Below are positions 13,703 to 31,956 of a stretch of 64,000 nucleotides of DNA, in pieces. The notes beneath the pieces were generated by a model. The model worked only from the letters and a program-made list of their open reading frames with translations, did not search any database and had not been told where the DNA came from. The position numbers were made by a program, and so were the translations under genes. Numbering within the stretch: the stretch's first letter is position 1; each line of letters starts with the position of its first letter. Source of the stretch: Bradyrhizobium ottawaense (lineage in GTDB: Bacteria; Pseudomonadota; Alphaproteobacteria; Rhizobiales; Xanthobacteraceae); assembly GCF_002278135.3 (NCBI RefSeq), contig NZ_CP029425.2:682001-746000 (forward strand), given 5' to 3'.

Positions 13703-13727
13703 GGAACGATTCAAGAAAGCGTGAGTT
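13703..13727 (+). promoter_or_regulatory. Candidate EcfG general-stress promoter
   Basis: GGAAC (13703-13707), 16 bases, AGTT (13724-13727); the start codon is 38 bp further on. The -10 differs from CGTT at its first base. Confidence 0.5.
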
Positions 13728-13765
13728 CGATCTCAAATCTAAAGAAACACGAAAAGGGTAACGCG

Positions 13766-14722
13766 ATGACACGATCCGTGGAGGAGTTGAGACGCGAGTC
13801 CGAGCGTAGCCGTGCGGAGCTGGCGGCGACGGTAGGTCGGTTGAAGGAGCAGATATCGGACACTGCTGACGACATTCGCCACAAAGTTTCGCCGCAGCAC
13901 ATCAAATCTGAAGTTACCGACTATGTCAGCCAAAAGACCCAGAGCTGGGTCGAAGGGCTTAAGCAACAGATCATGGACAATCCCATGCGCGCAGTGGCCG
14001 CGGGCGCCGCACTGGGTGTCCCGTTGCTCCGCTTGGTACGAGGCACGCCGCTGCCGCTTCTCATGATCGGGGCCGGGCTGGCCCTGACCTCGAAGACGGT
14101 GCGGAATCGCGCTGCGGACGCCTCCGGTCTAGTCATGGACAAGGCGGGGCGCCTGCTTGAGGAGGTGACGGAGGGCGCGCGATCCATGCCAGGCGACGTC
14201 AAGGAGACGCTATCCTTCGCCCAAAGCCGAGCGGCCGGCATGGCAGATGACGCTCAGAAGGCCGCTGGTCTCGCCGCTGATCTGCGGGCAAACGCGGCGC
14301 AGGCTGCCAGCTTCGCAAGTGAAAAGCTCAAGAGCGGCATGGACGCTGCCAAGGATGCCGCTGCGAGCGCGCCCGATCAGGCTCGGCAGACCATCGGCGA
14401 CAATGCCGCGTTGATCGGGGGCTTAGGCATCGCGATCGGCGCCATCATTGCTGCGGCTCTTCCAGAGACCAAGGCTGAAGGCAAAGTGATGGGCGGAGCA
14501 AGCGATGGAGTGAGGCAGGCTGCGGCCGCCGCGATGCAATCCGGAGTCCAGGCAGCGAGAGACGCGACCACGACCGCGGCCGATGCTGCGACGCAAAAGG
14601 TCGCCGAGGCAGATCTCGGCAGCCATGCCAGCCGCGTGACGCAGAACATGGCTGACAAATTGAAGGAGGCTGCCGAGGACGTCGTCAAAGCTGCCTTTAG
14701 CCCCTCTCAACCCAACACTTGA
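13766..14722 (+). CDS. DUF3618 domain membrane-associated protein
   Basis: 318 residues from the ATG at 13766 (MTRSVEELRRE); an upstream ATG at 13721 is not needed. DUF3618 covers ~1-45 (RRESERSRAELAATVGRLKEQI). A membrane hairpin follows (~85-115, PLPLLMIGAGLALTS), then long Ala-rich amphipathic helices, a Gly-zipper membrane segment near 215-232 (LIGGLGIAIGAIIAAAL) and more amphipathic helix. It is the first of four genes overlapping or nearly touching, with an EcfG-like site upstream. The layout suggests a peripheral/inner-membrane stress protein. No enzyme motif is seen. Confidence 0.85.
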   Translation: MTRSVEELRRESERSRAELAATVGRLKEQISDTADDIRHKVSPQHIKSEVTDYVSQKTQSWVEGLKQQIMDNPMRAVAAGAALGVPLLRLVRGTPLPLLMIGAGLALTSKTVRNRAADASGLVMDKAGRLLEEVTEGARSMPGDVKETLSFAQSRAAGMADDAQKAAGLAADLRANAAQAASFASEKLKSGMDAAKDAAASAPDQARQTIGDNAALIGGLGIAIGAIIAAALPETKAEGKVMGGASDGVRQAAAAAMQSGVQAARDATTTAADAATQKVAEADLGSHASRVTQNMADKLKEAAEDVVKAAFSPSQPNT

Positions 14723-14733
14723 AGGAAACCATC

Positions 14734-15411
14734 ATGAGCGAGTTCGATCCGGACAACGTGACACAGTTCTCAAAGAACCAAGACAATGGCACCGCCAAAG
14801 ACATGAAGGAGCAGATGAGTGATGCCGCAGCGGAGGTGAAGCAGCGCGCTGGCGACGCTTTCCGGGCTTCGGCCGATGTCGCGCGCGACAAATTCGGTGA
14901 GGCCGCGGATGCAGCAAAGGGGGGTGCGGAAGGAACCTTGGACCAGATCCAGAGCCAGGCCCGCGAGCAGCAACGTTCGGGAGCAGACTTCGTAGAGCGC
15001 CTCGCTGACAACATCCGCGAAGCCGGCAGGGCTTTCGAGAGCGATGTTCCGTTTGCAGCACGTGGCATCGGCTCCGCCGCCGACTATGTCAAAGACGCTG
15101 CGCAGAAGATCCGGGATGGGAGCTTCCCAGATCTCGTCGAAGGCGCAACCGACTTCGCAAGACGTCAGCCTGCGGCCTTTCTTGGAATATCGGTGCTGGC
15201 AGGCTTTGCGGCCGTGCGCTTCCTGAAGGCATCGGGCGGACCGTCGTCATCCCAAGGGCAGCGTAACACCACTGGCAGCACTTCGGGGAGCGGACAGGCG
15301 TCGCGTGGGACCTCGTTTTCGTCGGGAGAGCAAAACTGGAGTCAGGAGACCAGGAACGGTCGCCCTCATACGCAACAAGATTCATATTCAAAGGGCAGCA
15401 CCGTACCATGA
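14734..15411 (+). CDS. Ala-rich single-pass stress protein, ElaB/YqjD-like in layout
   Basis: 225 residues from the ATG at 14734, with AAGGA before it. Residues 1-140 are amphipathic Ala/Lys/Gln helices (AAEVKQRAGDAFRASADVARDKFGEAADAAK). One Gly-rich membrane segment lies near 150-170 (FLGISVLAGFAAVRFLKA). The tail is Ser/Gly/Gln-rich and disordered. This is the arrangement of DUF883/YqjD proteins with an added tail. Its stop overlaps the next start by 4 bases. Function inferred only from layout. Confidence 0.8.
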   Translation: MSEFDPDNVTQFSKNQDNGTAKDMKEQMSDAAAEVKQRAGDAFRASADVARDKFGEAADAAKGGAEGTLDQIQSQAREQQRSGADFVERLADNIREAGRAFESDVPFAARGIGSAADYVKDAAQKIRDGSFPDLVEGATDFARRQPAAFLGISVLAGFAAVRFLKASGGPSSSQGQRNTTGSTSGSGQASRGTSFSSGEQNWSQETRNGRPHTQQDSYSKGSTVP

Positions 15412-15824
15412 GCATCGAGCGCGATATCAAAACCAGCCAAAGCGAGTTCAGGGAAATCTCGACGCTGCTTGGTGACGCCATGTCGCAGTTCGCCAAGCTG
15501 TTTCAGAATGAAATCGACCTGGCAAAAGCGGAGGTTGGCGACAAGCTCCAGAAGATCGGCGGCGCCCTCGGCTTGATCATAGGCGGCGCCGTTCTAGTGA
15601 TCCCAGCCATCGTCATGGCCTTGTTTGCACTGTCCGCGGCACTCATCTCCGCCGGATGGTCGCAGCCGCTGTCGTATCTGACTTCGGCAGTCATCGCCGC
15701 CGTCGCCGCCGCCGCGCTGGTCGCAATGGGCATGAGCCGCCTTGATATGCGTCAGCTGGCCCCCCGCGAAACGATCGGCCAGCTGGAAAAGGACAAGGAC
15801 ACCGTGAAGGGAATGGTGCGATGA
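15408..15824 (+). CDS. Phage-holin-superfamily / YqjE-like membrane protein
   Basis: 138 residues. An amphipathic N-terminal helix (LLGDAMSQFAKLFQNEIDLAKAEV) precedes two long membrane segments (~50-75, GLIIGGAVLVIPAIVMALFA; ~84-105, LTSAVIAAVAAAALVAMG) and a charged tail. This is the DUF1469/Phage_holin_3_6 (YqjE) pattern, so chromosomal stress use is more likely than lysis. Both ends overlap neighbouring genes by 4 bases, which makes coexpression almost certain. Confidence 0.85.
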   Translation: MSIERDIKTSQSEFREISTLLGDAMSQFAKLFQNEIDLAKAEVGDKLQKIGGALGLIIGGAVLVIPAIVMALFALSAALISAGWSQPLSYLTSAVIAAVAAAALVAMGMSRLDMRQLAPRETIGQLEKDKDTVKGMVR

Positions 15825-16558
15825 GTAGCACAAAGACCGGCTTTATCGACAATCTGGTGGCGGCTGCCAAGGACAACCCGCTTGCCGCGGCGCTCATTGG
15901 AGGCGGAGCGCTCTGGCTGTTGGCCGGCGACCAGAGGCTGAAAACTGTTGCGCGTTCCGCTGCCGAAGCCGTCGAACCCGTCGCCGACATAGGGACGAGT
16001 GCTTTCAGGTCGGCAGCATCCGCGATCAAGCAGACCGAGGCGCCGCCGACCGCACCCGAAATGGACAACGAAAGCGCGCGAGGGGGCGGCGAGAGTCTCC
16101 CTGGTGCGACAGCAGCCCTTTCCGATACCGTCTCGCAGGCCGCCGGCAGCGTCCGGGATCGTTTCGATGAAGGCGTCGCCTTCGCGCAGGAGCAGTTCAG
16201 CAAGCTCGGCAATCCGCTTCCGAACAAGGACACCGTGAACAGCGCGAAGTCGTCACTCACAGACATGCTGGAACGGCAACCCCTCGTCCTGGGAATCGTG
16301 GGCGTCGCGGTCGGTGCAGCGGTTGCAGGCGCGTTTCGCGCGTCCGACATGGAGAACAAGTATATCGGCGAAGTCAGCGATAACCTGAAGGCCGATCTGG
16401 ATCGACGCGCTGGTGCCGTGTCGCAGGCGCTGCGGGAAGCTTCTGATACCGTCGTCGCAGAAATCGGCGATACCGGGGCCGAAGTCGTGGACCGGGTTAG
16501 GCAAGCGGGTATGGACGCTGCGGCAGCTGCGCGCGCCGAGGTGAAGTTGCCTTCGTGA
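15821..16558 (+). CDS. Ala-rich two-segment membrane stress protein
   Basis: 245 residues, ATG overlapping the previous stop. One membrane segment is near 22-37 (PLAAALIGGGALWLLAG) and a second near 150-170 (LVLGIVGVAVGAAVAGAF). Amphipathic helices lie between and after. The second segment plus its FRAS ending resembles the membrane segment of the 14734 protein, so the two may share ancestry. Last gene of the four-gene unit; no enzyme motif. Confidence 0.8.
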   Translation: MSSTKTGFIDNLVAAAKDNPLAAALIGGGALWLLAGDQRLKTVARSAAEAVEPVADIGTSAFRSAASAIKQTEAPPTAPEMDNESARGGGESLPGATAALSDTVSQAAGSVRDRFDEGVAFAQEQFSKLGNPLPNKDTVNSAKSSLTDMLERQPLVLGIVGVAVGAAVAGAFRASDMENKYIGEVSDNLKADLDRRAGAVSQALREASDTVVAEIGDTGAEVVDRVRQAGMDAAAAARAEVKLPS

Positions 16559-16649
16559 ACGGAATAGGAGGAGCGCGCGGAGGATGGCGCGCTCCTCCAA
16601 GCTCGTCAGGCAACATGGTCACGCAGATCGCTGCGCGCGGCCTTAACTT

Positions 16650-16913
16650 TCATATGGCGCGCCGTTGTCGTCCGGCGAAGAGACCATACACAAAGAGGAC
16701 GATGATGGCGCCGAGGACCGCTCCGACCAGCCCGGCACCCTCTCCAGGACGGTACCAGCCTAAGGCTTGACCCAGGTAAGTGGCAACGAAGGCACCGACG
16801 ATGCCCAGGATCGCCGTGAGGATGAACCCGGAGGGTTCGTTGTCACCAGGCATGATGAATTTTGCAATCACGCCCGCAACAAAGCCGATGATAATCGTCC
16901 AAAGAATGCTCAT
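16650..16913 (-). CDS. GlsB/YeaQ/YmgE family stress membrane protein
   Basis: 87 residues, three membrane segments: IIGFVAGVIAKFIMPG, then FILTAILGIVGAFVATYLG, then GAVLGAIIVLFVYGLFAGR. The G-A-G-V-I-A-K-x-I-M-P-G signature is typical of transglycosylase-associated (Transgly_assoc) stress proteins. It lies 37 bp downstream of the YidB-like gene on the same strand, probably in one transcript with the EcfG-like site at 17463. Confidence 0.9.
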   Translation of the reverse strand: MSILWTIIIGFVAGVIAKFIMPGDNEPSGFILTAILGIVGAFVATYLGQALGWYRPGEGAGLVGAVLGAIIVLFVYGLFAGRQRRAI

Positions 16914-16950
16914 TCTCTCCTCCTCTCGAATACCGGCGAAAGTTCAGCTG

Positions 16951-17406
16951 TTATGTCGTCGGTAGGCGCCCCTCGGGCGTGTACTTGTCGATTGCCTGAG
17001 GCAGCTCGCGCGACAATCTTGCGAGTATTTCCTCTTGAGAGAGTCCGGTCTCCGTCTCGAGCTTGTCCAACACCTCGGGCCCGATTGCTTCCCGCAACTG
17101 CGGCGGCGAGAGCTCCCTGTTTGGCCCAGAACTGATCCAAGACCTAGCCGCGTCTCCGTGGCCATTTTGATTGAACTTCTCCAGGAGTTCGCCAATTCCT
17201 CCTTGGAGCAGTCCCCCTACCCCTCCGCCACTCAACATACCTGTGAGATTTCCGAGTAGGCCACCAAGCGGTTGCTGGGCGTTGGCTGGCTGAAGCGATC
17301 CAGCACCCGGCCCTCTGAGCAACTCTGCCAACTTGTCCCGATTCTGATACCCGGCGATTGCCAGCATCCCGAGAAGTGCAGTCATGGCTGGCATTCCGCG
17401 GCTCAT
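16951..17406 (-). CDS. YidB family (DUF937) protein
   Basis: 151 residues. A hydrophobic start (MTALLGMLAIAGYQ) is followed by a Gly-rich linker (GGLLGNLTGMLSGGGVGGLLQGG) and the YidB domain (GHGDAARSWISSGPN, LREAIGPEVLDKLE, LSQEEILARLSRELPQ, YTPEGRLP). The helical domain resembles LysM-free YidB; its role is unknown. Paired with GlsB downstream. Confidence 0.85.
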   Translation of the reverse strand: MSRGMPAMTALLGMLAIAGYQNRDKLAELLRGPGAGSLQPANAQQPLGGLLGNLTGMLSGGGVGGLLQGGIGELLEKFNQNGHGDAARSWISSGPNRELSPPQLREAIGPEVLDKLETETGLSQEEILARLSRELPQAIDKYTPEGRLPTT

Positions 17407-17438
17407 CTTTATGGCTCCTCAACGGCTTTGACAGCTCG

Positions 17439-17463
17439 AACTCGGAGGAGCCAGCTCTGTTCC
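17439..17463 (-). promoter_or_regulatory. Candidate EcfG general-stress promoter
   Basis: On the minus strand GGAAC (17463-17459), 16 bases, AGTT (17442-17439); the YidB start at 17406 is 32 bp further on. Confidence 0.5.
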
Positions 17464-17583
17464 TATGCGCCGGCACTGGAAGCGCCGCGCTATCCGTACT
17501 TCCGGAAGACGCGATAGACGTGAGAGGCGCGTCCTAGATCGGCACGAAGGACGAAGCTGCTCGCCCCGGTCGCGAGCCTCACG

Positions 17584-17608
17584 GGAACGTTTGACAGAAC
17601 GACGGGTT
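17584..17608 (+). promoter_or_regulatory. Weak candidate EcfG promoter
   Basis: GGAAC, 16 bases, GGTT, 49 bp before the AI-2E fragment. Weakest of the six because of the GGTT. Confidence 0.35.
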
Positions 17609-17657
17609 CGGCTAAGCGCCGCGCCGCTTGCCGACGCGCCTGCTTCATAGGGCTGCC

Positions 17658-17852
17658 ATGTCGAATGTTGATCGCACCCCGTCCTGGGAAGAGGAAAACG
17701 TCCGAGCGGCCTCGAGCCCGGCCTCGAACTTCTTGTCGTTGCAGATCGGCGTGGTCATCGTAGCTGCGCTATACGTCGCTCGTGAGGTGCTCGTTCCGAT
17801 TACGGTCGCGGTGCTTCTGTCCTTCGTCCTGTTACCTTTGGTGAACGTGTAA
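17658..17852 (+). pseudogene. AI-2E family transporter, N-terminal fragment
   Basis: 65 codons: a polar start, then LQIGVVIVAALYVAREVLVPITVAVLLSFVLLPLVNV and TAA. A-R-E-x-L-x-P-x-x-x-A-x-L-L-S-F-x-L-x-P-L-V is the first membrane block of AI-2E/PerM permeases, which are normally about 350 residues or more. The rest is absent downstream, so this is a truncation and not a frameshift. A two-segment peptide might still be made. Confidence 0.7.
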
Positions 17853-18255
17853 GTTAGCGTCTGGCGCTTCTGACAGGAACGACTCGGCGCTCCGTTGATT
17901 TGAGATATCGGTCTGTGGCGCGATACCTGGACCCCTCTAGGTTTTTCGTCATCCACCCGGAACGGCCCATCGTCCGACGCGCGTTAGGCGATGGGCCGGT
18001 TCTCGTAATGCCACCTCATCGGCATCGTCACAACGCATTCGTGCAGCACCGTGTGATGCACCGCTGGCTTTCTTCTTGAAGTTTCTCAACTGCTAGAGTA
18101 TTGTCTCATTTATCGATACTGGCCGAACAACTGTTCCGCTTTCGCCTCAGATCCTGACGGCGCGCACGTTTCAGACATTCTCCAACATCGACTAACCGGA
18201 CGACTGGCCGCAACTCTGTGCGCCAGGTCCTGCGCGCATACGAAAGGAAGACCTG
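17853..18255. other. Gap containing the cspA leader
   Basis: No gene is seen. The right part must hold the promoter and the long 5' leader usual for cold-shock genes. I could not define a promoter. Confidence 0.4.
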
Positions 18256-18465
18256 ATGAACACAGGTACAGTGAAGTGGTTTAACACCCAAAAGGGCTTC
18301 GGCTTTATCCAGCCATCAAACGGCAGCAACGATGTCTTTGTTCACATCAGCGCGGTCGAACGTGCCGGTATGGGTACTCTGAGCGAAGGTCAGACGCTGT
18401 CTTATGACGTCGTCGCAGACCGTCGCACGGGCAAGTCCGCTGCCGAAAATCTTCGTGCTGCTTAA
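18256..18465 (+). CDS. cspA: Cold-shock protein
   Basis: 69 residues, one cold-shock domain, with RNP1 KGFGFIQP and RNP2 VFVHISAVE. It binds single-stranded RNA and DNA and melts RNA structure. Starts MNTGTVKWFNTQ, with AAAGGAAG upstream. Single gene, closed by a strong terminator at 18522. Confidence 0.95.
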   Translation: MNTGTVKWFNTQKGFGFIQPSNGSNDVFVHISAVERAGMGTLSEGQTLSYDVVADRRTGKSAAENLRAA

Positions 18466-18521
18466 GAGCACGACAGACCTGTCGCTCTAGCCACGGATGT
18501 ACTGGTAGAGCTTGTGGTCAC

Positions 18522-18555
18522 GCCCCGCTCCCGAGTTATCGGGGCGGGGCTTTTC
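18522..18555 (+). terminator. Rho-independent terminator of cspA
   Basis: CCCCGCTCCCGA pairs with TCGGGGCGGGG with one bulged T, then CTTTT. Confidence 0.8.
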
Positions 18556-18691
18556 ATTCAAGCAGGTAAAAGATCGAACAGCGGGCGCCACTGCGGCTCC
18601 CTTGACTGTTGCGCCTGTGCCCGATGACTGCGTCAGCGTGTTCACCAGCCGCATCGGGAACGTGATTCCTCAGTGCCAAGCAGGAGACTCA

Positions 18692-18931
18692 ATGAGCATA
18701 GTTAAACGTCATCTAGCCGAGCAAGAAGAACGCCTGGTCCTGATCGAGGAAATTTGTATCGATACAGGAGCGCTTGTCTTGGATACTGCCACAGACGAAG
18801 TCTACTTCTCCGCGGACGAAGCGGCTTACAAGAACGCATACGTCACAGTGTTCCAAGCTTGGGCAAAGGGCACGATAAAGGGCACCGCGGAACAGATATT
18901 CGAGGCTACAAAATCCATTCTTGAAGACTAG
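18692..18931 (+). CDS. Small hypothetical protein, 79 aa
   Basis: ATG at 18692 with CAGGAG before it. Sequence MSIVKRHLAEQEERLVLIEE, then VLDTATDEVYFSADEAA, is soluble, acidic and mixed alpha/beta, and has no known motif. A longer frame from 18512 crosses the cspA terminator and is rejected. A second small gene follows 38 bp later. Function unknown. Confidence 0.6.
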   Translation: MSIVKRHLAEQEERLVLIEEICIDTGALVLDTATDEVYFSADEAAYKNAYVTVFQAWAKGTIKGTAEQIFEATKSILED

Positions 18932-18968
18932 CAAGACCGCCGATAGAGCCGTAAACGTCGAGGAAAAT

Positions 18969-19175
18969 ATGTCATACGCCTATAAGCTAAATGAAGAGGT
19001 TCGGCACCACGCTCAGGGTCCCCAAGGACGCGCCGCAACTGAACTGCCGAGGATCTACACGATCGTACAGTGCATGCCGATCGAGTCCGATGGACGAGTA
19101 AGATATCGCATCAAGTGCAGGTCCGAGAACATTGAGCGCGTCGTTACGGAAGATCAGCTTTCGTATCTTCACTGA
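18969..19175 (+). CDS. Small hypothetical protein, 68 aa
   Basis: ATG at 18969 preceded by GAGGAAAAT. It reads MSYAYKLNEEVRHH, then PRIYTIVQCMPIESDGRVRYRIKC and ERVVTEDQL: a short beta-rich domain with one Cys pair, soluble. The layout suggests an SH3-like small barrel, but this is a guess. Possibly cotranscribed with 18692. Confidence 0.6.
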   Translation: MSYAYKLNEEVRHHAQGPQGRAATELPRIYTIVQCMPIESDGRVRYRIKCRSENIERVVTEDQLSYLH

Positions 19176-19282
19176 TCTCCGCGAGAATGGCGCTTTGGTT
19201 GAGGGAGCTGGAATAGTACAAGTGAGTCCAGACCTTCAGCCACGCCAAAAGCACCGGATGCACACCTGAAGGTGTCATCGAG

Positions 19283-19468
19283 TCACTTCGCGTAACCCTG
19301 TGATCGGAGCCAAGCGATCCGACGCTCTCCATTCGTCCAATCGTCAATATCGGCTTTGCTCGTGAAGCCCGTAATCTCTCGCGCTTCTGCGCCCGGGTAC
19401 TCGGCGATGATAGCCCAGTCGCCCTCGGATTTACGAACTGGTTTGAAGTTCACTTTTATTTTTGCCAT
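19283..19468 (-). CDS. Small hypothetical protein, 61 aa
   Basis: MAKIKVNFKPVRKSEGDWAI, then EYPGAEAREITGFTSKADIDDW and RIAWLRSQGY: beta strands followed by a helix, of DUF2188-like size. The IDDWL/RIAWLR ending is seen in small rhizobial proteins. It stands alone; function unknown. Confidence 0.6.
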   Translation of the reverse strand: MAKIKVNFKPVRKSEGDWAIIAEYPGAEAREITGFTSKADIDDWTNGERRIAWLRSQGYAK

Positions 19469-19560
19469 GCCGAATTATGTAGGAAGGCGGCCGAAAAGGG
19501 AACCCGGTTGTGCCATGTTCGGCCTAGAGTAAATAGCAGACGTTGGCCCCCGAGGATGCC

Positions 19561-19806
19561 TTACTCTGGAGCGATCCTGTAAACATCGCCGGGTTTGAGG
19601 TTGAGTTCCTCGAACATCCTCTGCTGGTTTTCAGTGAGGACCGCTGGCACAACTGCCGCAGTCCAGCCTTCGGGAACGGCAGCAAGGACTAGCGTCAATG
19701 CCTGATTAGGCTTGGCTAAGGCGAGCCACATCTGCTTCGTTGGCTGCGGAGCGTCGTCCGAGGTCACCTCAACGATAGTGAATGAAGTGCCGAACGACTC
19801 TGCCAT
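19561..19806 (-). CDS. Small hypothetical protein, 81 aa
   Basis: MAESFGTSFTIVEVTSDDAP, then QMWLALAKPNQALTLVLAAVPEGW and ENQQRMFEELNLKPGDVYRI. Soluble, no Cys. Family unknown to me. It shares strand with the zinc-finger-like gene at 19845. Confidence 0.6.
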   Translation of the reverse strand: MAESFGTSFTIVEVTSDDAPQPTKQMWLALAKPNQALTLVLAAVPEGWTAAVVPAVLTENQQRMFEELNLKPGDVYRIAPE

Positions 19807-19844
19807 CCCTGGCCAATCCGCGGAATTGCTAAGAGTTGCAATAA

Positions 19845-20036
19845 CTAGCTGGGTCGCTGAAGGCGGACGGGGTCAGCAATCAATCTATAGGTGGGCACCC
19901 AAGCGGTGTTCCACGATTCCATGGTCGCGCCGCAAACCGAGCACTCGAAGCTGGCGATCTGCCGACCCGGGGCCATCGCCTCGGTTCGGGTATAGATTGC
20001 TCCACAGTGGCAGGTTCGGTAGTGGGAATCGGGCAT
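19845..20036 (-). CDS. Small Cys-rich protein, probable zinc ribbon, 63 aa
   Basis: Contains CHC near residues 9-11 and C-S-V-C at 32-35, enough for one Zn site. The rest is YRTCHCGAIYTRTEAMAPG and CSVCGATMESWNTAWVPTYRL. It could bind metal or nucleic acid. Family not recognised. Confidence 0.55.
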   Translation of the reverse strand: MPDSHYRTCHCGAIYTRTEAMAPGRQIASFECSVCGATMESWNTAWVPTYRLIADPVRLQRPS

Positions 20037-20209
20037 TCCCGTTTATGCGCTCAAAAGGCGAAACAGGCCACTGCGAAGATTGAACTAGGCCGTTGAGGAG
20101 GGAAGCAGGATAGCCGGTGAAGCCGGCAGAACCTGGCCCACAACTAGAACGTGCGATAGCTAAGCCTGGCTCCACTGTGCGGGCGCCGCCTTGCCCCCAG
20201 CTCTGGATA

Positions 20210-20237
20210 TAGTTACTCTCCACTAGTTACTCTCCAC
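20210..20237. repeat. 14-bp tandem duplication
   Basis: TAGTTACTCTCCAC occurs twice without a gap, upstream of the 20272 gene. Confidence 0.8.
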
Positions 20238-20271
20238 GCGAAGCTCAATTCGATAATGGCAGAAACTTCAC

Positions 20272-20514
20272 ATGCCAACGACGACACGCGAGTACATTGA
20301 TTTTTGGGTCGAGAACAGCGTTCACGCCGCGGAGCAATATGGGACGCCGGGCGCTTCACAAAGCGTGGACGTATTGGTTGACCGCCTCGTTGAGGGGGCC
20401 AAAAATCAAAACATCCCGCGAGAGGCCCTTGAAAAAGAGGTCGGTGATCTAAAGCAGCACATCGAGGGAAAACTCGCGACTGCCAACCGGATTGAGCAAA
20501 ATCGCCGCAAGTGA
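20272..20514 (+). CDS. Small DUF768-like protein, 80 aa
   Basis: MPTTTREYIDFWVENSVHAAEQYG, then VDVLVDRLVEGAKNQNIPREALEKEVGDL. The F-W-x-x-N opening, the helix and the G-I-P-x-E-x-L-E-x-E-V-G-D block resemble DUF768 proteins of rhizobia. It is helical and soluble. The family call is tentative and the function unknown. Confidence 0.6.
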   Translation: MPTTTREYIDFWVENSVHAAEQYGTPGASQSVDVLVDRLVEGAKNQNIPREALEKEVGDLKQHIEGKLATANRIEQNRRK

Positions 20515-20587
20515 CTTCGACTTGCGCAGATCCAACGAAGTCGCGTCTAACTTAGCTCCGATCAGGAAAGGCACTGCGAGAACGGCC

Positions 20588-20755
20588 ATGGCAATGCGAG
20601 AGGAAATAAAGCGAGTGATACATGCTGCGACACCCGGTATGTCGCAGCAGCTCTACTCAGCACTGCTGGTGTTAGGCGAGCTCCTTAGCAACGCACTCGA
20701 CCGAATCGATGAACTCGAGAAGAAGGCCAACGGCCAAACGGCAGACAAGCGCTGA
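20588..20755 (+). CDS. Small helical protein, 55 aa
   Basis: The start at 20588 gives MAMREEIKRVIHAATPGMSQ, then LYSALLVLGELLSNALDRIDELEKKANG. A longer form from TTG at 20492 would overlap the previous gene. One amphipathic helix could form a coiled coil. Family unknown; low support. Confidence 0.4.
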   Translation: MAMREEIKRVIHAATPGMSQQLYSALLVLGELLSNALDRIDELEKKANGQTADKR

Positions 20756-20996
20756 TCGCCCGCCCCATCTCATTGCTCAAGCTTTTTCCGGCTACCTAGA
20801 ACGACGTCAGGTTAGCCACAGGCGAGGCCCGCAATGGGTCAGAAGCGCCGATTTGACCAGCGGTCGGGCGCTTCCGGTTTACCACCGACTCCGGACAACT
20901 CGCCGCTACGCCCTAACGGAAGCGATGGGCCAAGAGCAGAAATCGCCGACGCAAGCCGCTCTGAGAACATCTTCTCATCGAGCATGTCGGGCTAGG

Positions 20997-22987: not shown

Positions 22988-23020
22988 ACAAGAGACTCGT
23001 GCATCGCAACAATAGGATCT

Positions 23021-23986
23021 CTATTCGATCACCTCATCAGCGCGAAGCAGTAATGAGGTCGGCACGCTGAGGCCGAGTGCTCTGGCAGTCTTCATGTTGA
23101 TCACGAACTCGAATTTTGTCGGCTGCTCTACCGGCAGATCGGACGGCTTGGCGCCTTTAAGTATCTTATCCACGTAGCCGCCTGCACGGCGGAAGAGATC
23201 GGCGAAATCGGGGCCGTAGACGATCAATCCCCCATTTGCGAATTGTCGGGAGAAATGAACGGCAGGCAGATGATGTTTCGCCGCGAGCGCGACGACTCGG
23301 GGGGCCTCGACAACAGTCAGAGTATCGCCAAAAACAATGATTGCATCAGCGCGCTGGGCGGCAGCCGAGGCAAAGGCCACATCAAGCTCCTCGGCCGTGG
23401 TCGCCTGAACTATCGGCAGAGCCACACCTAGGTTACGGGCCGTACTGGGTACCTCGTCGGCTAACAACAGCCTATGCATCGGGTTGCCTGGATTGGCCAG
23501 GATTGCAAACTGCGAGGCACCAGGCACCAGTTCCCGGAGGATTTCTATTCGTTTTGCGACAAAATCTCCCGGCACGTAAGTCGCAAGTCCCGTTATGTTG
23601 CCGCCGGGCCGCGCTAGGCTTTGCACGAGGCCAAGTCCCACAGGATCAGCCACGGCTACGAATACGATGGGAATGGTAGCAGTTGCCGATTTCAGAGCCT
23701 TGGTTGCCTGCGGTGCCGCGACGATGAGCACATCGGGACTGAGGGCAACCAGATCGGCAACCGAAGCGGGCAGTCGATCCGGAGGTTGGGAAAAACGATA
23801 ATCGATAATCAGATTTCTTCCGTCTATCCAACCGTGGTTTCGCAGCCCATCAAACAACGCCAGTTCGGTTTGATTGAGCGTCCGCCCGCTTCCGTCACCT
23901 ACAGCGAGAAAGCCAAGTCGATAGCGTCGGCTCTGCGCCCGCAAACCCCGTGACGAAACGAGTAACGCCGCAGTCCCGCCGCTTCA
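23021..23986 (-). pseudogene. ABC_sub_bind protein, frameshifted in the signal peptide
   Basis: The mature part is whole: GFLAVGDGSG, PIVFVAVADPVGLGLV, RPGGNITGLA and the family end EQPTKFEFVINMKTARALGLSVP. The frame has no ATG at its start. Upstream, an ATG at 23986 gives M-K-R-R-D, the usual twin-arginine start, in a different frame, while the body frame reads AALLVSSRGLRAQ just before the mature part. One frameshift between 23984 and 23967 therefore separates signal and body. A cytosolic product from TTG at 23944 is possible. Confidence 0.7.
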
Positions 23987-24090: not shown

Positions 24091-24120
24091 ATGTCCGCCT
24101 TGGGTCAAAAGCTGCTCACC
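24091..24120 (+). repeat. Dispersed repeat, near-consensus copy
   Basis: ATGTCCGCC, TTGGGTCAAAAGC. This is the clearest short copy in the window. Confidence 0.6.
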
Positions 24121-24250
24121 ACGTCTCATCGCGCAAGGTCAGATCTCCCTCAAACAGCGGACGTGGCGACGGCGCGTTCGTTGTTCGGCTCAGGGCCATG
24201 AGCGGACTTGGTCTAGCCCGCAAGCGTGGCAGGGCCTGCCGAAAACGAAT

Positions 24251-25297: not shown

Positions 25298-25487
25298 TGC
25301 CCGAAGTCCACGGATGGCTTCTGTACAAAGGCTGTTCGCATGTTCCTGCGGCCGGTGGTGCGTCCTCCTTCGTAAAATCTTAAGGTTTAAATGTGGTGAA
25401 TGAGAGCAGACCTTCTGCCTCGTCACTCATCGTGTCCCGCTTTGGGTCACGAGCGCCCCTTGGCGGGAGACGCTGTGGGTCGGCTAT

Positions 25488-25530
25488 GGGCCAGAAGCGT
25501 CGCTCAGCGGGCATCACCGTGAAAGTCAGG
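25488..25530 (+). repeat. Dispersed repeat, copy C
   Basis: GGGCCAGAAGCG, CATCACCGTGAAAGTC; related to copies A and B, with another GGGTCACGAGCG at 25444. Confidence 0.6.
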
Positions 25531-25546
25531 CTACGCGCCAGCTGAG

Positions 25547-25863
25547 TTTGAAAGAGCGTTGGCGCTGGATTGCAATTTGGCTGAGGCACACGCGCAAATT
25601 GGCGGCGCAAAGCTGTATATGGGTCGCGGGGCTGAGACTGAAGCCCATATCAAAGAAGCATTTCGCCTCTCTCCCGCGATATCTTCGCTCATCGCTGGTT
25701 CATGATAGTAGGCTTTGCCACTGCAAGGGCGTTGTGTGAGCTTGTTACAACTTTCACAATTCGCCGCCTTCGGGACGGCGCGTACAGTGATCACCCAGTT
25801 TACCTCGTCAAACGCGAGCGCATCTATGACGGTTTGCGGCTGGCGGGGGTGTCGGAAGAATGA
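25547..25863 (+). pseudogene. Remnant of an adenylate-cyclase TPR C-terminus
   Basis: Frame one reads FERALALDCNLAEAHAQIGG, then GRGAETEAHIKEAFRLSP and shifts. The next frame reads DIFAHRWFMIVGFATARALC and jumps to TFTIRRLRDGAYSDHPVYLV, ending YDGLRLAGVSEE-stop. This is the same C-terminal TPR block as in 3460-5250, with one frameshift and about 50 residues deleted. No cyclase domain remains. Confidence 0.75.
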
Positions 25864-26206
25864 AGTTATAGGTAGCGATTCCCACCGAGTGTCGCGCAGG
25901 TCCGCTTCGGGGCAAAGGCTGCCCTCGTCTGTCCGCAGGACGCTATTCTGCTCACCTGGCTGTTTCTCCATCTAGGCCCCGCCGCTTCATCAACGTGCGC
26001 ATCCCCGAACATTTCCGCCAAACTGGTGAAAACTTGCGACTGGAGCGCTGACACATTGCACACAGAAACGAGCAGGACAGAAACGCAATCCGTTCCTTCG
26101 TCCGCTATAGCCAAGTCTTGGTGTGCAAGAGCGGTGCGCGCCTCGCAGGAACGACCGCGCAACGGTTTCGTTGTGCTCGTCTTCCGGACAAGAAAGGATA
26201 ATGATC
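25864..26206. other. Gap upstream of CsbD
   Basis: Holds a decayed dispersed repeat near 25898 and the EcfG-type promoter at 26148. No gene. Confidence 0.5.
26148..26172 (+). promoter_or_regulatory. EcfG general-stress promoter
   Basis: Perfect GGAAC (26148-26152), 16 bases, CGTT (26169-26172), 34 bp before the CsbD start. Confidence 0.7.
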
Positions 26207-26398
26207 ATGGACCGTGAACATGTGAAGGGCGCCGCCGACAAGGCAAAAGGTGCGATCAAACAGGGTGCCGGCAAACTTACCGGCGACAAGGACCTGGAAA
26301 CCGAAGGCAAAATGGATAAGGCCAAGGGATCCGCCCACAACGCTGCGGGAGACGTGAAGGACGCCGCGCGGGATACCGCTGACGCCCTCAAGAAATAA
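26207..26398 (+). CDS. CsbD family stress protein
   Basis: 63 residues, MDREHVKGAADKAKGAIKQG, then GKLTGDKDLETEGKMDKAKG: the whole CsbD fold. ATG at 26207 is 7 bases after AGGA; another ATG two codons earlier is too close to it. CsbD proteins rise in general stress; their action is unknown. It has its own EcfG-type promoter and a terminator, so it is a monocistronic stress gene. Confidence 0.93.
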   Translation: MDREHVKGAADKAKGAIKQGAGKLTGDKDLETEGKMDKAKGSAHNAAGDVKDAARDTADALKK

Positions 26399-26422
26399 GT
26401 AGAAAAAGGAAGGTCTGAAACT

Positions 26423-26448
26423 AGCCGCCGCAGGGCGGCTTTTTCTTT
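26423..26448 (+). terminator. Rho-independent terminator of CsbD
   Basis: AGCCGCC, GCAG, GGCGGCT, then TTTTCTTTT. Confidence 0.85.
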
Positions 26449-26586
26449 TCCATCACGTCCCGGACAAGTTTTTCGGGGCCCTTTAAGCTCGGGGTCTTTG
26501 CCCTCATGGCCGTGTGGCCATGGCCTCACGCTGCGCATCTTCGCTGAGTGTCCGCGGCGCACCTCTGCCGGAGCGGAGGTCGGCTC

Positions 26587-26638
26587 GGGTCACGAGCGGC
26601 CTTCAGCGGGCATCACCGTGAAGGTCCGCTGCGGGCCA
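26587..26638 (+). repeat. Dispersed repeat, copy B
   Basis: GGGTCACGAGCGGCC, GGGCATCACCGTGAAGG, TCCGCTGCGGGCC; pairs with copy A at 22936. The surrounding 26449-26888 gap holds nothing else that I recognise. Confidence 0.75.
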
Positions 26639-26888
26639 ATAGGCGGACTAACCAGACTTGCCCTGCTGCGGCAGCCCGCCGATCGGGCCAAGCGGCGCCG
26701 TGAACGTCGTTGAGAGGCGCGCGAACGGGCGAGGTCAAGCCCCTCCTGAGTCCAAGAAAGAAGCCGCCAGCTTAACGCCGCGGCTTAGATAGTCCCGGAC
26801 TGTCGATTGCCTCCTTGGCCCCAAGCGTACCACCGTTACCTTGTTTGCGGCCATGCCCGTCCGACCTACAGAACAAGCTTCATTTCTG

Positions 26889-27350
26889 CTATCGGGCAGC
26901 CGAGTTGTGCACCGGGCTCTTAGCCGCTAAGGCGCGAAGGGAGGCGGACGGCAGCCGAACCCGCGCCGTATCGCCAGCCTCGACCGTCCCGCCGACCCGC
27001 ACCACGCCCAGCACCTCGGATTGGAACGGAGGGCCCTTCTCCGCCGACGAGAGCATCTGTCGTTTAAGCCCGTCAATGAGGATGCAGGGCGTCCGTAGGC
27101 CGGTTAGCTCCACGATCGGCCCGGGTCCGACTTCGGCAGCCGCTCGAGGTCCAGGCCGGCGGTGGTGATGTTCTCTCCCAGGTCTGCCGCCGACCTCGAG
27201 CCGGTTTCGAGAAGGACCGCAAAGAGCTCGGATGGGATCAGGAGGACTTGTCGGAGATTGGCCAGGCGGGGCTGGCGACGCGCAGATAGCGATGCCCAAC
27301 GAACGAGCCAGCGTGGCCGTCGCCTTGGATGCCGAACAGCGAGCGCCGCT
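26889..27350 (-). pseudogene. MOSC protein with frameshifts
   Basis: Three frames carry consecutive pieces of the 12613 MOSC protein: FGIQGDGHAGSFVGHRYLR, then LANLRQVLLIPSELFAVLLE with DLGENITTAGLDLER, then PIVELTGLRTPCILIDG to LGVVRVGGTVEAGDTARV. At least two frameshifts separate them, so no whole protein is made. It is a diverged second copy, not a recent duplicate. Confidence 0.75.
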
Positions 27351-27650
27351 ATCGGCGCCAGAACCGATATCGCATAATTCATGTGAGGCGCGCTATCGCC
27401 GACACGCTAGGGTCGGGCCTTCTATCCGCGCCCTGATCGGAGGTGCCGCTCTGCAGCGCCGGCTCGCCTATCGGCGACGGCATGATTGAACAGGTCGAGC
27501 ACTAGATCGAATGCAGCCATGTCCTCCTGTTCGATTGCTCCATCATCGGAGCGCTTGGGTGTCTCGGCGATGGTCGCGTCAACTGCGCGTTGCGATGTCA
27601 GCAGGGCAAAAAGCGTTTGAACCACGGCCCGGCCATTCGATCAGTGAATG

Positions 27651-29681
27651 CTAAACAATCAGATCGTGAGCCGCATGGAGATTGGCGTGCCATGAGTGAT
27701 CGTGGTGCGCATCTGCAACATCAATTCCGTCAGCATCCTGGACCGGCTCCGGCCCCTCGCGCGCAACGGAATGCTGACCATCTCCATAGGCTTTTCCATC
27801 TCCGTGGCTCAGTTGCTGAAGGTCATACACGTCTGAAGACGTATTGTCGGCGAAACTCTGAAAACGAAAGGAATCGCCCAGTTCAGTGCCAACCGCTGAT
27901 TTGGCCTGATCTGCATTGTCGGAAGAAGGCCCGCCCTTTCCTTCAGTGGCCGAATGTGCGTCATTGGCAGAATTTACGGACGCCGTTGGTATATTCTGCT
28001 GCGGTTTGCCAGTATCTAAATCAGCTGCCTGTGCATGCTGTGCGTGTTGCTCGCCGGCCGCGGAGCCATGTTCAAAAGTCTGCAAATCGCCGTGAGCCTG
28101 TCCGCGATTCGAATCTTCTCCCGGGGCCTCATGCTTGGCGTGCCCCTTGGCGGCTCCGGAGCCGTTGTCGGATTCATGCAGAGCCTTCTGCGATTGACCG
28201 CGATTTAAACCGTCGCCCGCAGCGTCATGCTTGGCATGCCCCTTGGCGGCTCCCGAGCTGTGGTCGGACTCATGTAAGGTCTTCTGCGATTGACCGTGAT
28301 TTAAATCGTCTCCCGGGGTCTCACGCTTAGCGGCTTCGTCGGAAGGGCGCAAATCGAATTGGGATCGACCGTGATTTGACCCGCTGTCCCGGCCTGCCTC
28401 CGCGGGGCCCCGCTGCGAGGCTTCGTTCGCGGCCGCCGCAACAACATCAACGGCCCCCGAACCTCGGGGAATAGGGACTTCCCGGTCACTACCGCCATCC
28501 TCTGCATGGGCATTGCCGACATAAAGCTCGCGGCCGTCTGTGGCGATTGCATCGCCTAGGGCCAACTCGAATGCGAACGCCCGATCGTACTCGGCCGTGC
28601 CGCCGAAATTTGCGAAGCCGGGAAGTGCGGATGCCAGTCCGTTGGCGTCGCTTGCGGTAGATGAAGTGACGATGTCATCGCCGAAATCGGACGCCTGCAC
28701 GGCGTGGTTGGCACCATCGAGCTCGTAGATCAAGGCGGCGAAAGCTGCAACCATGAAGATGCTGTAGCCGCTCGAACCCGGTCTCGGCGCGTTGAGTGCT
28801 GCCAGCGCAAATAGGCTCGCGGCAATCTCAGCGTCGACGAGTTTGCCGGTCGGCGATGGCGTCCCAGTTGCGACGCCGGCGCGGTCCTTGCTCGCGCCTC
28901 TGGCCGGGGTGCCACCTGATACTGCTTCCTTGCGGCTGATTTTAATGGTGACGACCTCCGCGCCGCCATTTGCGGCCTCGACCGTGAAACTTTCGGTTGC
29001 GGCGTGACCGGGCGAATCATCCAACGCTGCCAGGATCGCAGCAGCCAGGATACTCATCGCGCCATAACGGCGCGACAGTGCCAGCGCGGCGAGCTCCGTT
29101 CGGCTGTTGATTCCCAGCTTCTGTCGCGCGTGGTCGATGTGAATCCTGACGATCTCCAGGGAGACACCAAGCACCCGCGCAATTTCAGTGTCCGACAAGC
29201 CTTCCGCGACGAGATCCATGATCGTCCGCTCATTGACGGTCAGAAGCGCCAGAACGTTATTGCCGAATGAGGCGATTCCATTGGCTTCGTTACCGACCCT
29301 CGCCTGGTCAGACCCCCGTTTTTCCAGCCTCAGCGACTGCACCAGCGCTTCTGGCTTGGCGTTCATCGAAATCGCGCCGCAAGCGCCGGTCGCCAGTGCT
29401 CTGGCAAGATCGCCGCAGGTGACAGTAGCAGTGAAGAACACAAGCCGGGAGGAAAGACCTTCGTCGTCCACGGCGGCGAGGATGTCGGAGGCGGTTACAT
29501 CAGTGAACCCGTCCTCCAGTAACACCACATCGGGCGTCAAGCGGCGAAGGGCCGCAAGGCAACTAGCGCCATCGAGACAGCACCCAACCACTTCGAAATC
29601 TGGCTGCGCTTCGAGCAGCGATACAAAGCCCTGCAGAACAATGGGACGTCTATCTGCTATCACAAGTCGAACGCGACGCAT
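27651..29681 (-). CDS. LuxR-type regulator with altered receiver and long repeat tail
   Basis: 676 residues from the ATG at 29681. The receiver-like domain (~1-115) is altered: VIADRRPIV has Arg for the second acid, VVLLEDGF has Glu in place of the phospho-Asp, and GAISMNAKPE lacks the usual Lys. A LuxR helix-turn-helix follows (~147-203: TVNERTIMDLVAEGLSDTEI, EIVRIHIDHARQKLG). Then come two hydrophobic stretches (SILAAAILAAL; GYSIFMVAAFAALIYEL) and a hydrophilic tail with three 32-residue repeats and a His/Asp-rich end. Phosphorylation control is probably lost, and the regulator may be membrane-bound. An EcfG-like site lies upstream. A second LuxR regulator is adjacent. Confidence 0.8.
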   Translation of the reverse strand: MRRVRLVIADRRPIVLQGFVSLLEAQPDFEVVGCCLDGASCLAALRRLTPDVVLLEDGFTDVTASDILAAVDDEGLSSRLVFFTATVTCGDLARALATGACGAISMNAKPEALVQSLRLEKRGSDQARVGNEANGIASFGNNVLALLTVNERTIMDLVAEGLSDTEIARVLGVSLEIVRIHIDHARQKLGINSRTELAALALSRRYGAMSILAAAILAALDDSPGHAATESFTVEAANGGAEVVTIKISRKEAVSGGTPARGASKDRAGVATGTPSPTGKLVDAEIAASLFALAALNAPRPGSSGYSIFMVAAFAALIYELDGANHAVQASDFGDDIVTSSTASDANGLASALPGFANFGGTAEYDRAFAFELALGDAIATDGRELYVGNAHAEDGGSDREVPIPRGSGAVDVVAAAANEASQRGPAEAGRDSGSNHGRSQFDLRPSDEAAKRETPGDDLNHGQSQKTLHESDHSSGAAKGHAKHDAAGDGLNRGQSQKALHESDNGSGAAKGHAKHEAPGEDSNRGQAHGDLQTFEHGSAAGEQHAQHAQAADLDTGKPQQNIPTASVNSANDAHSATEGKGGPSSDNADQAKSAVGTELGDSFRFQSFADNTSSDVYDLQQLSHGDGKAYGDGQHSVAREGPEPVQDADGIDVADAHHDHSWHANLHAAHDLIV
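28026..28313. repeat. Three 96-bp tandem units in the LuxR tail
   Basis: 32-residue units beginning GDDLNHGQSQKTLHESD, GDGLNRGQSQKALHESD and GEDSNRGQAHGDLQTFE. The third is the most diverged. They are in frame, so units can be gained or lost without a shift. Confidence 0.85.
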
Positions 29682-29729
29682 GGGCTTCCTTCGCTCGGCC
29701 TTGCAACACAACATGAGAGGCCGCGACTT

Positions 29730-29754
29730 AACTCCGCTCGGCCGGTTGCGTTCC
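29730..29754 (-). promoter_or_regulatory. Candidate EcfG promoter of the LuxR-repeat gene
   Basis: On the minus strand GGAAC (29754-29750), 16 bases, AGTT (29733-29730); start codon 48 bp further on. Confidence 0.5.
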
Positions 29755-29945
29755 AAATTGTCATAATGGGGTTCGTGCGGACGCTTCTGACGATGAGTTC
29801 AATCAGTTCGTCGGGATAGCTCCATATAGCTCGCCCCTTTTGCCGTCGCGCGCGTCAGAGGTCGTGCCGCTCAAGTGCGCACAGTGAGCAGGGCACTCTC
29901 CGATGTCGCTGCTGTGCAAAAACTTCCAAAATAGCAGGATTCCGG

Positions 29946-30569
29946 TCACTGGTGCAAATCGATCTCGACTGCGATCCGGACCAAGTCGGAGTGATTTCGA
30001 GCGCCGAGCTTGGACTTCAGCACGGAGGTCGTGTTGGCAACGGTTTTATAGGAGATGCCGAGTTCGGACGCGACTTCTGAAATGCGGTCGCCACGACCCA
30101 AAAGCCTCAGGATCTCGAGTTCGCGTGGGCTCATCTGCGTCAAAGGACTGGCCTTGATCGCCGCGCCCGCGAAAGTCGTCGCTTCCGCCAGACGCGGTGA
30201 GACGAAGCGCTCGCCGGCTGCAACCTTCCGAATGGCCTTGGCCAGGAGCCGGGGATCATCGCTCTTTGAGACATATCCCTGAATGCCCATCTCCACAGCG
30301 CGCACCACGAACGCCGGATCCTCACTCGCGCTGAGCATGACAATTTTGCCGGCCGGATCATCCCTGCGGATTCGCCGGGTCAACTCGAAGCCGGTAAGGT
30401 CGGGAAGCCAAATGTCAATCACGGTGACGTCGGGATGCTTCTGCAAGTACGCACGGTGGCCCTCCTTTGCATCGGAAGCCTCCAGGATCTCGACGGAAGG
30501 GTCCGATGTGAACAAGGCCCGGCAGCCGGTCACGACAACGGGATGGTCGTCGACGATTAGTACCCGCAT
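29946..30569 (-). CDS. NarL/FixJ-type response regulator
   Basis: 207 residues. Canonical receiver: VDDHPVV, VTVIDIWLPD with phospho-Asp at ~52, LSASE and SKSD with the Lys. The LuxR helix-turn-helix is at ~145-200 (MSPRELEILRLLGRGDRISE, SYKTVANTTSVLKSKLGARN). No kinase is adjacent. It differs from its neighbour at 27651 in having an intact phosphorylation site. Confidence 0.92.
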   Translation of the reverse strand: MRVLIVDDHPVVVTGCRALFTSDPSVEILEASDAKEGHRAYLQKHPDVTVIDIWLPDLTGFELTRRIRRDDPAGKIVMLSASEDPAFVVRAVEMGIQGYVSKSDDPRLLAKAIRKVAAGERFVSPRLAEATTFAGAAIKASPLTQMSPRELEILRLLGRGDRISEVASELGISYKTVANTTSVLKSKLGARNHSDLVRIAVEIDLHQ

Positions 30570-30955
30570 TTCGATCTGGTCCTCATTTGCACGTGCTCGC
30601 TTCCTCCAGTTGTGGAGAACGTCGCGAGCACTTTAATGGTTCAAATATCTGAGCGGGACGTGGAGCGACCTGGCAAAAGGAGTACGAATTTCAGAAGATT
30701 TGGAATGTTTATTCCTTTCGGCAGAGGCTGCTGCTTCCTATCGCTTTGATGATCCTGAGCGCGCAGTTGTCCGGCGCGAGGGCGCTTCTCGTCTTCTCCT
30801 AATCAGTTCGAGTACCCTTGCGCTAGCCATGGCGCCAGCGGATTGATGTAGATTGCTGCTCGTCGTAGCAAGCCACGCGGCTTTGATTGGACACCGCGCA
30901 CGCCGTGGTCGTTGATGTAATCCGAAGTTATTCGCCTTGCTAGGAATATCGCAGC
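30570..30955. other. 386-bp gap
   Basis: A weak TGAAC-N17-CGTT lies in the minus direction at 30618-30643, before the response regulator. Otherwise nothing that I recognise. Confidence 0.3.
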
Positions 30956-31204
30956 ATGTGGAACTGGATGATGCTGGGGCTAGAAAGCAATCGCGTGATC
31001 GGACTGCGCCTAGCGAAGTTGATGCGCGGGGGCAAAGCGGCCCAACGTGAAGCCCAGCGCATGGTGAGTGAAAAAGTGCTGGCGGCGGCGAAGGCCGGTA
31101 CAAGCCTGATGGCTGGCGCATCGGGAGACAAGATTGTTGAGCAATACCGAAGGAAGGTCGCGGCAAACGCCAAACGGCTCAGTCGCAAGCGAACGCGCAA
31201 ATGA
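30956..31204 (+). CDS. Small basic hypothetical protein, 82 aa
   Basis: MWNWMMLGLESNRVIGLRLAK, then KAAQREAQRMVSEKVLAAAKAG and a Lys/Arg-rich end (AANAKRLSRKRTRK). Helical with a basic tail. The size, the opening and the place beside a phasin are typical of a conserved rhizobial hypothetical. Its end overlaps the phasin end by 26 bases, tail to tail. Confidence 0.6.
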   Translation: MWNWMMLGLESNRVIGLRLAKLMRGGKAAQREAQRMVSEKVLAAAKAGTSLMAGASGDKIVEQYRRKVAANAKRLSRKRTRK

Positions 31205-31880
31205 AAATCGCGCTGAATTCGCCGGGGCGGCAAGAGCGGCTTGCCCTGCCGCTCTCTCCGTTGAACAAGTCCGCCCTGCTTAGCGTGGGATCTGATCCAT
31301 AGTTTTTTTTAATCTGCTTCCCAGTATCGTCGGCCATTTTGAGCGACAAGTCGGCGATACGACGGCTGCTTTCCAGAGCGGTCTCCACTGTCTCCCGCAC
31401 CATGTCACTCTGCACCGCCGCAAAGTCCTGTGGAGTTCGGCACGTCCACAACCTGTTCAAGTGGTCCATGTGCTTCTCAAATTGTTGACGAACCATCTGG
31501 AGGTACTCTTGGGACATTCCCCCCATCACTTTGGCGGCGGCTGTACCACTGTAGAGGAGCGTCTGCGCGTTGCGAGCTGACCGTTCGGTTGCCGCCGTTA
31601 CCTTTTGCGCATCTTCTTCAGATATGCCAAGCGTGCGGCTAAACTGCTCGCTTGACCGTCCCATTACCGAGGTCGCCGCCTCGAGGCTGGAGCGCCAAGT
31701 CTGCTGTAACGTCTCAACATTTTGCTTGAGCATATCAGCGCTGGCCCGTGCCACTTCTTCGCCGGCTTCAGCCGCAGCTTGCCCGATGCGCGTGGTCTGC
31801 TCCGCAGCCCTCTCGCCTGTACGGCGGGCTGCGTCTTCCATGTTTTGTGTCGATCTCTCTTCCGGACGCGGGTTTGCCAT
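31179..31880 (-). CDS. Phasin family protein
   Basis: 233 residues. The phasin domain (~60-175) has amphipathic heptads: DMLKQNVETLQQTWRSSLEA, SRTLGISEEDAQKV, ARNAQTLLYSGTAAAKVMGG, HMDHLNRLWTCRTPQDFAAV. It coats polyhydroxybutyrate granules or acts in stress. The last ~40 residues (from NYGSDPT) do not look like phasin and may be read-through after a lost stop. An EcfG-type promoter lies 51 bp upstream. Confidence 0.85.
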   Translation of the reverse strand: MANPRPEERSTQNMEDAARRTGERAAEQTTRIGQAAAEAGEEVARASADMLKQNVETLQQTWRSSLEAATSVMGRSSEQFSRTLGISEEDAQKVTAATERSARNAQTLLYSGTAAAKVMGGMSQEYLQMVRQQFEKHMDHLNRLWTCRTPQDFAAVQSDMVRETVETALESSRRIADLSLKMADDTGKQIKKNYGSDPTLSRADLFNGESGRASRSCRPGEFSAIFICAFACD

Positions 31881-31931
31881 CTTTAGTTCTCCAATGATTG
31901 TGTCGATGACTCCCTCAGCCTGTTGTGCAGA

Positions 31932-31956
31932 AACGCGATCCTGATGAGACCGTTCC
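31932..31956 (-). promoter_or_regulatory. EcfG general-stress promoter of the phasin gene
   Basis: On the minus strand a perfect GGAAC (31956-31952), 16 bases, CGTT (31935-31932). Confidence 0.7.

Follow-up and report, generated by a model that had tools for sequence, protein, structure and literature searches.

Probable EcfG-type general-stress promoters cluster in a 64-kb stretch of a Bradyrhizobium genome

The stretch of DNA analysed here (the window) comprises 64,000 nt of an 8.59 Mb Bradyrhizobium genome and was searched for the motif GGAAC-N16-NGTT, with other spacers for comparison, a pattern that resembles the promoter of the general-stress sigma factor EcfG (group ECF15 of the extracytoplasmic function, or ECF, sigma factors). 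The window contains ten such sites, named here by the coordinate at which each begins on its own strand (Table 1). Six of these had been described in an initial annotation made from the letters alone; all six are real, their coordinates are correct and the spacer is exactly 16 bases in each, but four others (9502, 10528, 35513 and 3280) had been missed. The distances of 33–52 bp to the start codon given there agree with gaps of 38, 32, 49, 34, 48 and 51 bases between the last T and the start for 13703, 17463, 17584, 26148, 29754 and 31956 respectively, and the two of these six credited with a perfect CGTT are indeed 26148 and 31956. Pfam also backs the products named behind them, the AI-2E fragment excepted, with matches to DUF3618, YidB, Transgly_assoc, CsbD, GerE plus Response_reg, and Phasin_2.

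Table 1. Motif sites and associated genes in the window (positions are those of the window; ORF, open reading frame; NHEJ, non-homologous end joining).
Feature	Position	Strand	Remarks
GGAAC-N16-TGTT site	3256..3280	-	107 bp before called ORF 2108-3148; weakest member
Perfect GGAAC-N16-CGTT site	9478..9502	-	27 bp before small protein 9145..9450
GGAAC-N16-AGTT site	10504..10528	-	before DNA ligase
GGAAC-N16-AGTT site	13703..13727	+	before DUF3618 operon
GGAAC-N16-AGTT site	17439..17463	-	before YidB
GGAAC-N16-GGTT site	17584..17608	+	before AI-2E fragment
Perfect GGAAC-N16-CGTT site	26148..26172	+	before CsbD
GGAAC-N16-AGTT site	29730..29754	-	before LuxR-repeat regulator
Perfect GGAAC-N16-CGTT site	31932..31956	-	before phasin
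GGAAC-N16-TGTT site	35489..35513	-	92 bp before HWE kinase
Small protein (101 aa)	9145..9450	-	
NHEJ-type ATP-dependent DNA ligase	9491..10375	-	TIGR02779, 274.3 bits (cut-off 227.75); Pfam DNA ligase domains
DUF3618 protein, unknown, Holin-X (PF07332) membrane protein, unknown; probable operon of four genes	13766..16558	+	Pfam
YidB-like protein, then transglycosylase-associated (GlsB-type) protein	16650..17406	-	PF20159, PF04226
64-aa product resembling part of AI-2E family transporters	17658..17852	+	
CsbD-like stress protein	26207..26398	+	PF05532, 60.6 bits
Response-regulator/LuxR-HTH protein, long repeat-bearing C-terminus	27651..29681	-	PF00072, PF00196 (on 27651-29756); NarL-like
Phasin	31179..31880	-	PF09361, 70.3 bits
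Single-domain receiver	32855..33221	-	overlaps kinase stop; motif PFLFSTGY
PAS-HWE sensor histidine kinase	33213..35396	-	PF07536, 91.2 bits (cut-off 22.8)

The spacing is specific: the window has ten matches at N16, none at N15 or N17 and three at N18, and the remaining nine spacer lengths between 12 and 21 bases together give 11 matches, of which four are intergenic and one lies within 120 bp of a start. Genes were called with our own caller, and the 62 raw calls were adjusted to a set of 61 by moving three starts (13766, 29681 and 31880), adding the missed YidB gene and removing two doubtful ORFs. These adjustments were made with the sites already known, the moved starts being backed by relatives that match from the first residue and YidB by Pfam. 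In the adjusted set all ten N16 sites are at least half intergenic (9502 shares 12 bases with the 3' end of the ligase gene), and nine have a start on the same strand within 120 bp; permuted motifs (n = 89) average 0.10 such sites with a best of 2, whichever gene set is used. Likewise, the 130-bp upstream regions of the adjusted set hold eight exact motifs against a control mean of 0.09. Sites with one mismatch at N16 were considered as further members and rejected, with one before a start and a control mean of 1.89.

Raw motif counts were discarded as evidence. Pooled N15-18 matches in the window are only mildly elevated (13, where shuffles average 5.79 and 2 of 100 reach 13), and across the genome N16 matches show no overall excess over the reversed pattern (CGTT 99 against 114, AGTT 35 against 60, KGTT, where K is G or T, 124 against 114); counting alone is a weak test. 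It is spacing and place, rather than count, that go beyond chance, and the earlier claim that the sites are not accidental stands in that form. The comparison of site density at starts with controls, proposed in the initial annotation, bears this out at genome scale: when the surroundings of all 99 CGTT sites, with genes called in a similar way, were set against those of the first 30 of the 114 reversed-pattern sites (three of the 30 being copies of one repeat), 78 of 99 were intergenic against 10 of 30 (Fisher p 6.9e-6), and a called start followed within 150 bp downstream in 57 of 99 against 2 of 30 (Fisher p 2.5e-7).

Conservation among relatives provides further evidence. For DUF3618, the relatives lie on 12 named contigs, 11 from Bradyrhizobium and one titled as a Mucilaginibacter metagenome-assembled genome (MAG). 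The four genes of the operon occur together in all 12 loci and the site is present in all 12, or in 11 of 11 distinct upstream sequences, in the alignment of which the -35 and GTT columns are 100% conserved, the spacer 89% and the upstream DNA 61%. The contig with the Mucilaginibacter title (L038, 3.4 kb) carries the operon with the same site and a DUF3618 protein of 81% identity, and is probably a mis-binned Bradyrhizobium contig. The YidB gene was found in five of the 12 loci, with a 16-spaced site upstream in all five; in L039, where YidB is 67% identical, the site is a different one and lies farther from the start. The GlsB-type gene follows YidB without a site of its own. In two loci the YidB site (L033, 13669-13695; L034, 13702-13728) matches GGAAC-N16-NGTT in either direction, with an offset of two bases between the strands, possibly a divergent overlapping promoter, and similar pairs occur in the genome under study at 4681728/4681730 and 7931610/7931612.

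The CsbD, phasin, LuxR-repeat, AI-2E and 9145 genes were followed by searches of the genus in which up to 30 loci were listed for each, the window gene included. The 30 CsbD loci yielded 27 distinct usable upstream sequences, 25 of which carry a site (23 at N16, two at N17 only), and in the 13 closest both boxes are 100% conserved and the spacer 71%. Phasin gave 23 loci and 14 distinct usable upstream sequences, all 14 with the site, the boxes being 100% conserved and the spacer 68%; loci left out were truncated or held a second fragment of a gene already included, and three of the matches used contain internal stops. Permuted-motif controls reach 7 of 13 for CsbD and 6 of 14 for phasin, and the permutations responsible probably represent the same motif in a shifted register. 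For the LuxR-repeat gene and its six nearest listed relatives the site was found in six of seven, in five of them farther from the start, and in none of the 23 listed relatives that match mainly the receiver-LuxR part. By eye, the C-terminus of this protein has histidine-containing repeats and two hydrophobic stretches, an unusual feature in a regulator that binds DNA.

Pfam had no match for the 64-aa product encoded at 17658. It had been described as an AI-2E remnant, a fair reading, since all three of the longer relatives examined belong to the AI-2E transporters (PF01594). The idea that its site lacks counterparts in relatives was ruled out: 29 of 30 listed loci could be located, and 11 of the 29, that of the window gene included, have a 16-spaced site, against a mean of 0.07 and a best of 1 for permuted motifs. 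The relatives with a site are distant (41–68% over short stretches) and the letters of their sites vary. Five of them in five other genomes (L309, L311, L312, L314 and L315) have similar GGAAC-N16-CGTT sites in common shortly before the ATG. The pattern of these upstream sequences suggests that AI-2E genes may be a recurrent general-stress target.

The small protein behind 9502 matched nothing in Pfam or NCBIfam. Among its gene, relatives and paralogues (30 listed loci), 7 of 19 usable distinct upstream sequences have a site of the 9502 type; in six more loci (L266, L267, L269, L270, L271 and L275), where the match begins within the gene, a site also lies immediately upstream, and these loci stand outside that count. 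A paralogue at 607 kb in the genome has its own perfect site (607032). The neighbouring site at 10528 lies 128 bp before the called ATG of the ligase gene, or 71 bp before a TTG at 10432, and its 25-mer recurs identically at genome position 608060, beside the paralogous site at 607032. The small gene and ligase site at 9145-10528 thus have a counterpart of near-equal spacing at genome positions 606858-608084, about 84 kb away at lower coordinates, and the pair seems from this match to have been duplicated.

The -35 element GGAAC is present in all ten window sites by construction, being part of the search pattern, but it is also 100% conserved in the aligned upstream sequences of DUF3618, the closer CsbD genes and phasin, which were picked without the motif. 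The first base of the -10 element is more variable: CGTT occurs at three window sites, AGTT at four and KGTT at three, and among relatives GTT is kept and this first base is less conserved in some upstream sets.

The genome also has the machinery that such promoters would need. NepR (PF18557) was found once, at 1.36 Mb, where the phyR, nepR and ecfG genes are adjacent, with PhyR (NF006623, 367.7 bits, cut-off 240) and an EcfG-type ECF sigma factor (NF009192, 393.1 bits, cut-off 307) beside nepR. GGAAC-N16-CGTT is the motif published for EcfG1 of R. etli (PMC3892343) and for EcfG of S. granuli (PMC7083833), essentially as stated in the initial annotation. The reading of the sites as an EcfG regulon, proposed there, is supported: it is consistent with the motif and its spacing, with where the sites lie, with their conservation in the genus and with the full PhyR-NepR-EcfG locus. 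We hold it highly likely, judging from sequence, that they are promoters of EcfG, and the ten are very probably switched on together by it. We infer the following course of events. Under stress, phosphorylated PhyR would draw NepR off EcfG, and RNA polymerase bearing EcfG would read GGAAC as -35 and NGTT as -10 element, 16 bases apart, so that transcription would begin shortly before each start codon. Nine promoters in 26 kb would drive envelope or surface proteins (the DUF3618-PF07332 operon and YidB-GlsB) together with CsbD, phasin, the end-joining type ligase, the LuxR regulator and the AI-2E fragment. The HWE kinase and the PhyR-like receiver are probably driven too, and could feed back on the pathway.

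Several observations weigh against this interpretation. The consensus C of CGTT is found in only three of the ten window sites. The placement of nine of ten sites near starts depends on four hand-set gene models and falls to six of ten with raw calls, and raw motif counts across the genome are not raised overall. No exact EcfG site precedes phyR or nepR; sites with one mismatch lie upstream of phyR, at 63 bp, and of nepR, at 82 bp, and such sites at N16 are no commoner than chance in the window. Conservation, moreover, is uneven: 18 of 29 AI-2E loci and 12 of 19 upstream sequences of the 9145 gene have no site, nor does the nearest relative of the LuxR-repeat gene (L234, 78% identity), 10528 is backed by the duplicate within the genome only, and 3280 and 35513 have no conservation support.

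An alternative that accepts the sites as ECF promoters is that some other or additional sigma factor reads them, whether a paralogue of EcfG or a different ECF factor that recognizes GGAAC, rather than mainly the EcfG linked to PhyR and NepR. At least two EcfG-like genes are reported in half of completed alphaproteobacterial genomes (PMC3892343), B. japonicum is reported to encode 17 putative ECF factors (PMC3420878), and seven of the ten window sites have a base other than C at the start of the -10 element. Against this, the reported EcfG motif is GGAAC-N16-CGTT (PMC3892343, PMC7083833), flexibility in the -10 element is described for EcfG of S. granuli (PMC7083833), and one NepR-linked EcfG locus was found in the genome; we regard a second factor as improbable. 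Chance matches in GC-rich intergenic DNA would account for genome counts that do not exceed the reversed control and for the mild elevation at N15-18, but not for the specificity of spacer and motif or for the conservation of both boxes across the genus; chance is very unlikely and is refuted for the set, though individual sites, above all 3280, may be accidental. That the pattern is instead a repressor or activator binding site is scarcely credible: fixed half-elements with a fixed gap could form a bipartite operator, as the two-stranded YidB sites of L033 and L034 might recall, but the ten window sites do not match the motif on both strands, they fit the sigma-factor consensus, and the best supported lie 27–51 bases before a start on the coding strand.

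As probable EcfG promoters, the sites share features with the ECF15 regulons described for R. etli (EcfG1), S. granuli (EcfG1/2), S. melonis and B. diazoefficiens: the GGAAC-N16-CGTT architecture, the PhyR-NepR-EcfG locus, csbD and ligase-type targets, and a short distance to the gene. The reported S. granuli regulon includes csbD, ku-ligD and an HWE kinase (PMC7083833); for S. melonis the motif is reported as GGAAC-N17-20-GTT, with Ku in a table of putative EcfG motifs (PMC6599016); and in B. diazoefficiens EcfG is reported to control more than 100 genes and to matter for soybean infection (PMC8092242). The switch mechanism is already known, because the motif, the csbD and ku-ligD targets and the B. 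diazoefficiens regulon have been published. The window differs in having nine sites in 26 kb and seven of ten sites off at the first -10 base, and also in its DUF3618-PF07332 operon, YidB-GlsB genes, phasin and LuxR-repeat regulator; these member genes and the tight clustering are the addition made here, in a comparison that does not extend to the published B. japonicum list. The result is a conservation-backed and testable list of general-stress genes in Bradyrhizobium, in which the DUF3618-PF07332 operon, YidB-GlsB and the LuxR-repeat protein, all from poorly understood families, would find a place in the general stress response.

The regulon had been called dispersed, which is not borne out, with nine sites within 26 kb. 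Clustering along the genome was assessed from listed positions (99 CGTT, 35 AGTT and 100 of 124 KGTT sites). The 27 kb from genome position 691478 hold seven AGTT and CGTT sites, the genome maximum, and uniform placement reaches seven in 0.2% of runs; when all NGTT sites are considered over the first 6.56 Mb, the window stretch, with nine, is second to 11 at 6.32-6.34 Mb. Genome positions 6306001-6366000 have 12 sites at N16 and none at N17, perhaps another stress-gene cluster. The DUF3618 operon of B. japonicum SZCCT0153 (L039) is the centre of an 18-kb region with seven N16 sites, where YidB, GlsB, CsbD and a response-regulator homologue are also present but arranged differently. Such clustering is not universal, since a 54.5-kb stretch with CsbD and phasin in another genome (G027) has six matches at N16 and five at N17.

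The kinase behind 35513 carries the HWE_HK domain. No close orthologue was found among the 39 other genomes of the genus that were searched, and consequently no footprint of this site was possible; larger matches elsewhere have approximately 44-54% identity over parts, or 63-64% over pieces of 120-130 residues, and in G027 a kinase relative shows no site immediately ahead of the frame that can be read. The second-best NCBIfam match of the adjoining receiver is the PhyR family (1.7e-15, far below the family cut-off). A kinase beside a PhyR-like receiver, behind an EcfG-type site, recalls systems that pair HWE/HisKA2 kinases with FATGUY single-domain receivers (SdrG, MrrA) in the general stress response, as well as LovK-LovR, which is reported to be under SigT control (PMC5964349). 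The window receiver departs by one substitution (PFLFSTGY) from the motif PFXFATG(G/Y) reported for SdrG and MrrA (PMC5964349), and LovK is a HisKA2 kinase whereas the window kinase is of the HWE type. Together, the close grouping of sites and the pairing of kinase with receiver suggest a way in which individual strains may gain stress inputs. A possible extension, which we put forward tentatively, is that 9-36 kb of the window is a general-stress island: a mosaic of accessory stress genes behind EcfG promoters, with its own HWE kinase and PhyR-like receiver as a strain-specific input to the core PhyR-NepR-EcfG pathway that the switch itself would amplify.

Around the cluster lie other genes. 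The called ORF 2108-3148, behind 3280, had no Pfam match; an adenylate-cyclase/TPR protein (PF00211) is encoded nearby at 3703-5250; and the open frames 7447-8346 and 23021-23731 encode, by their look, what we take to be ABC substrate-binding proteins.

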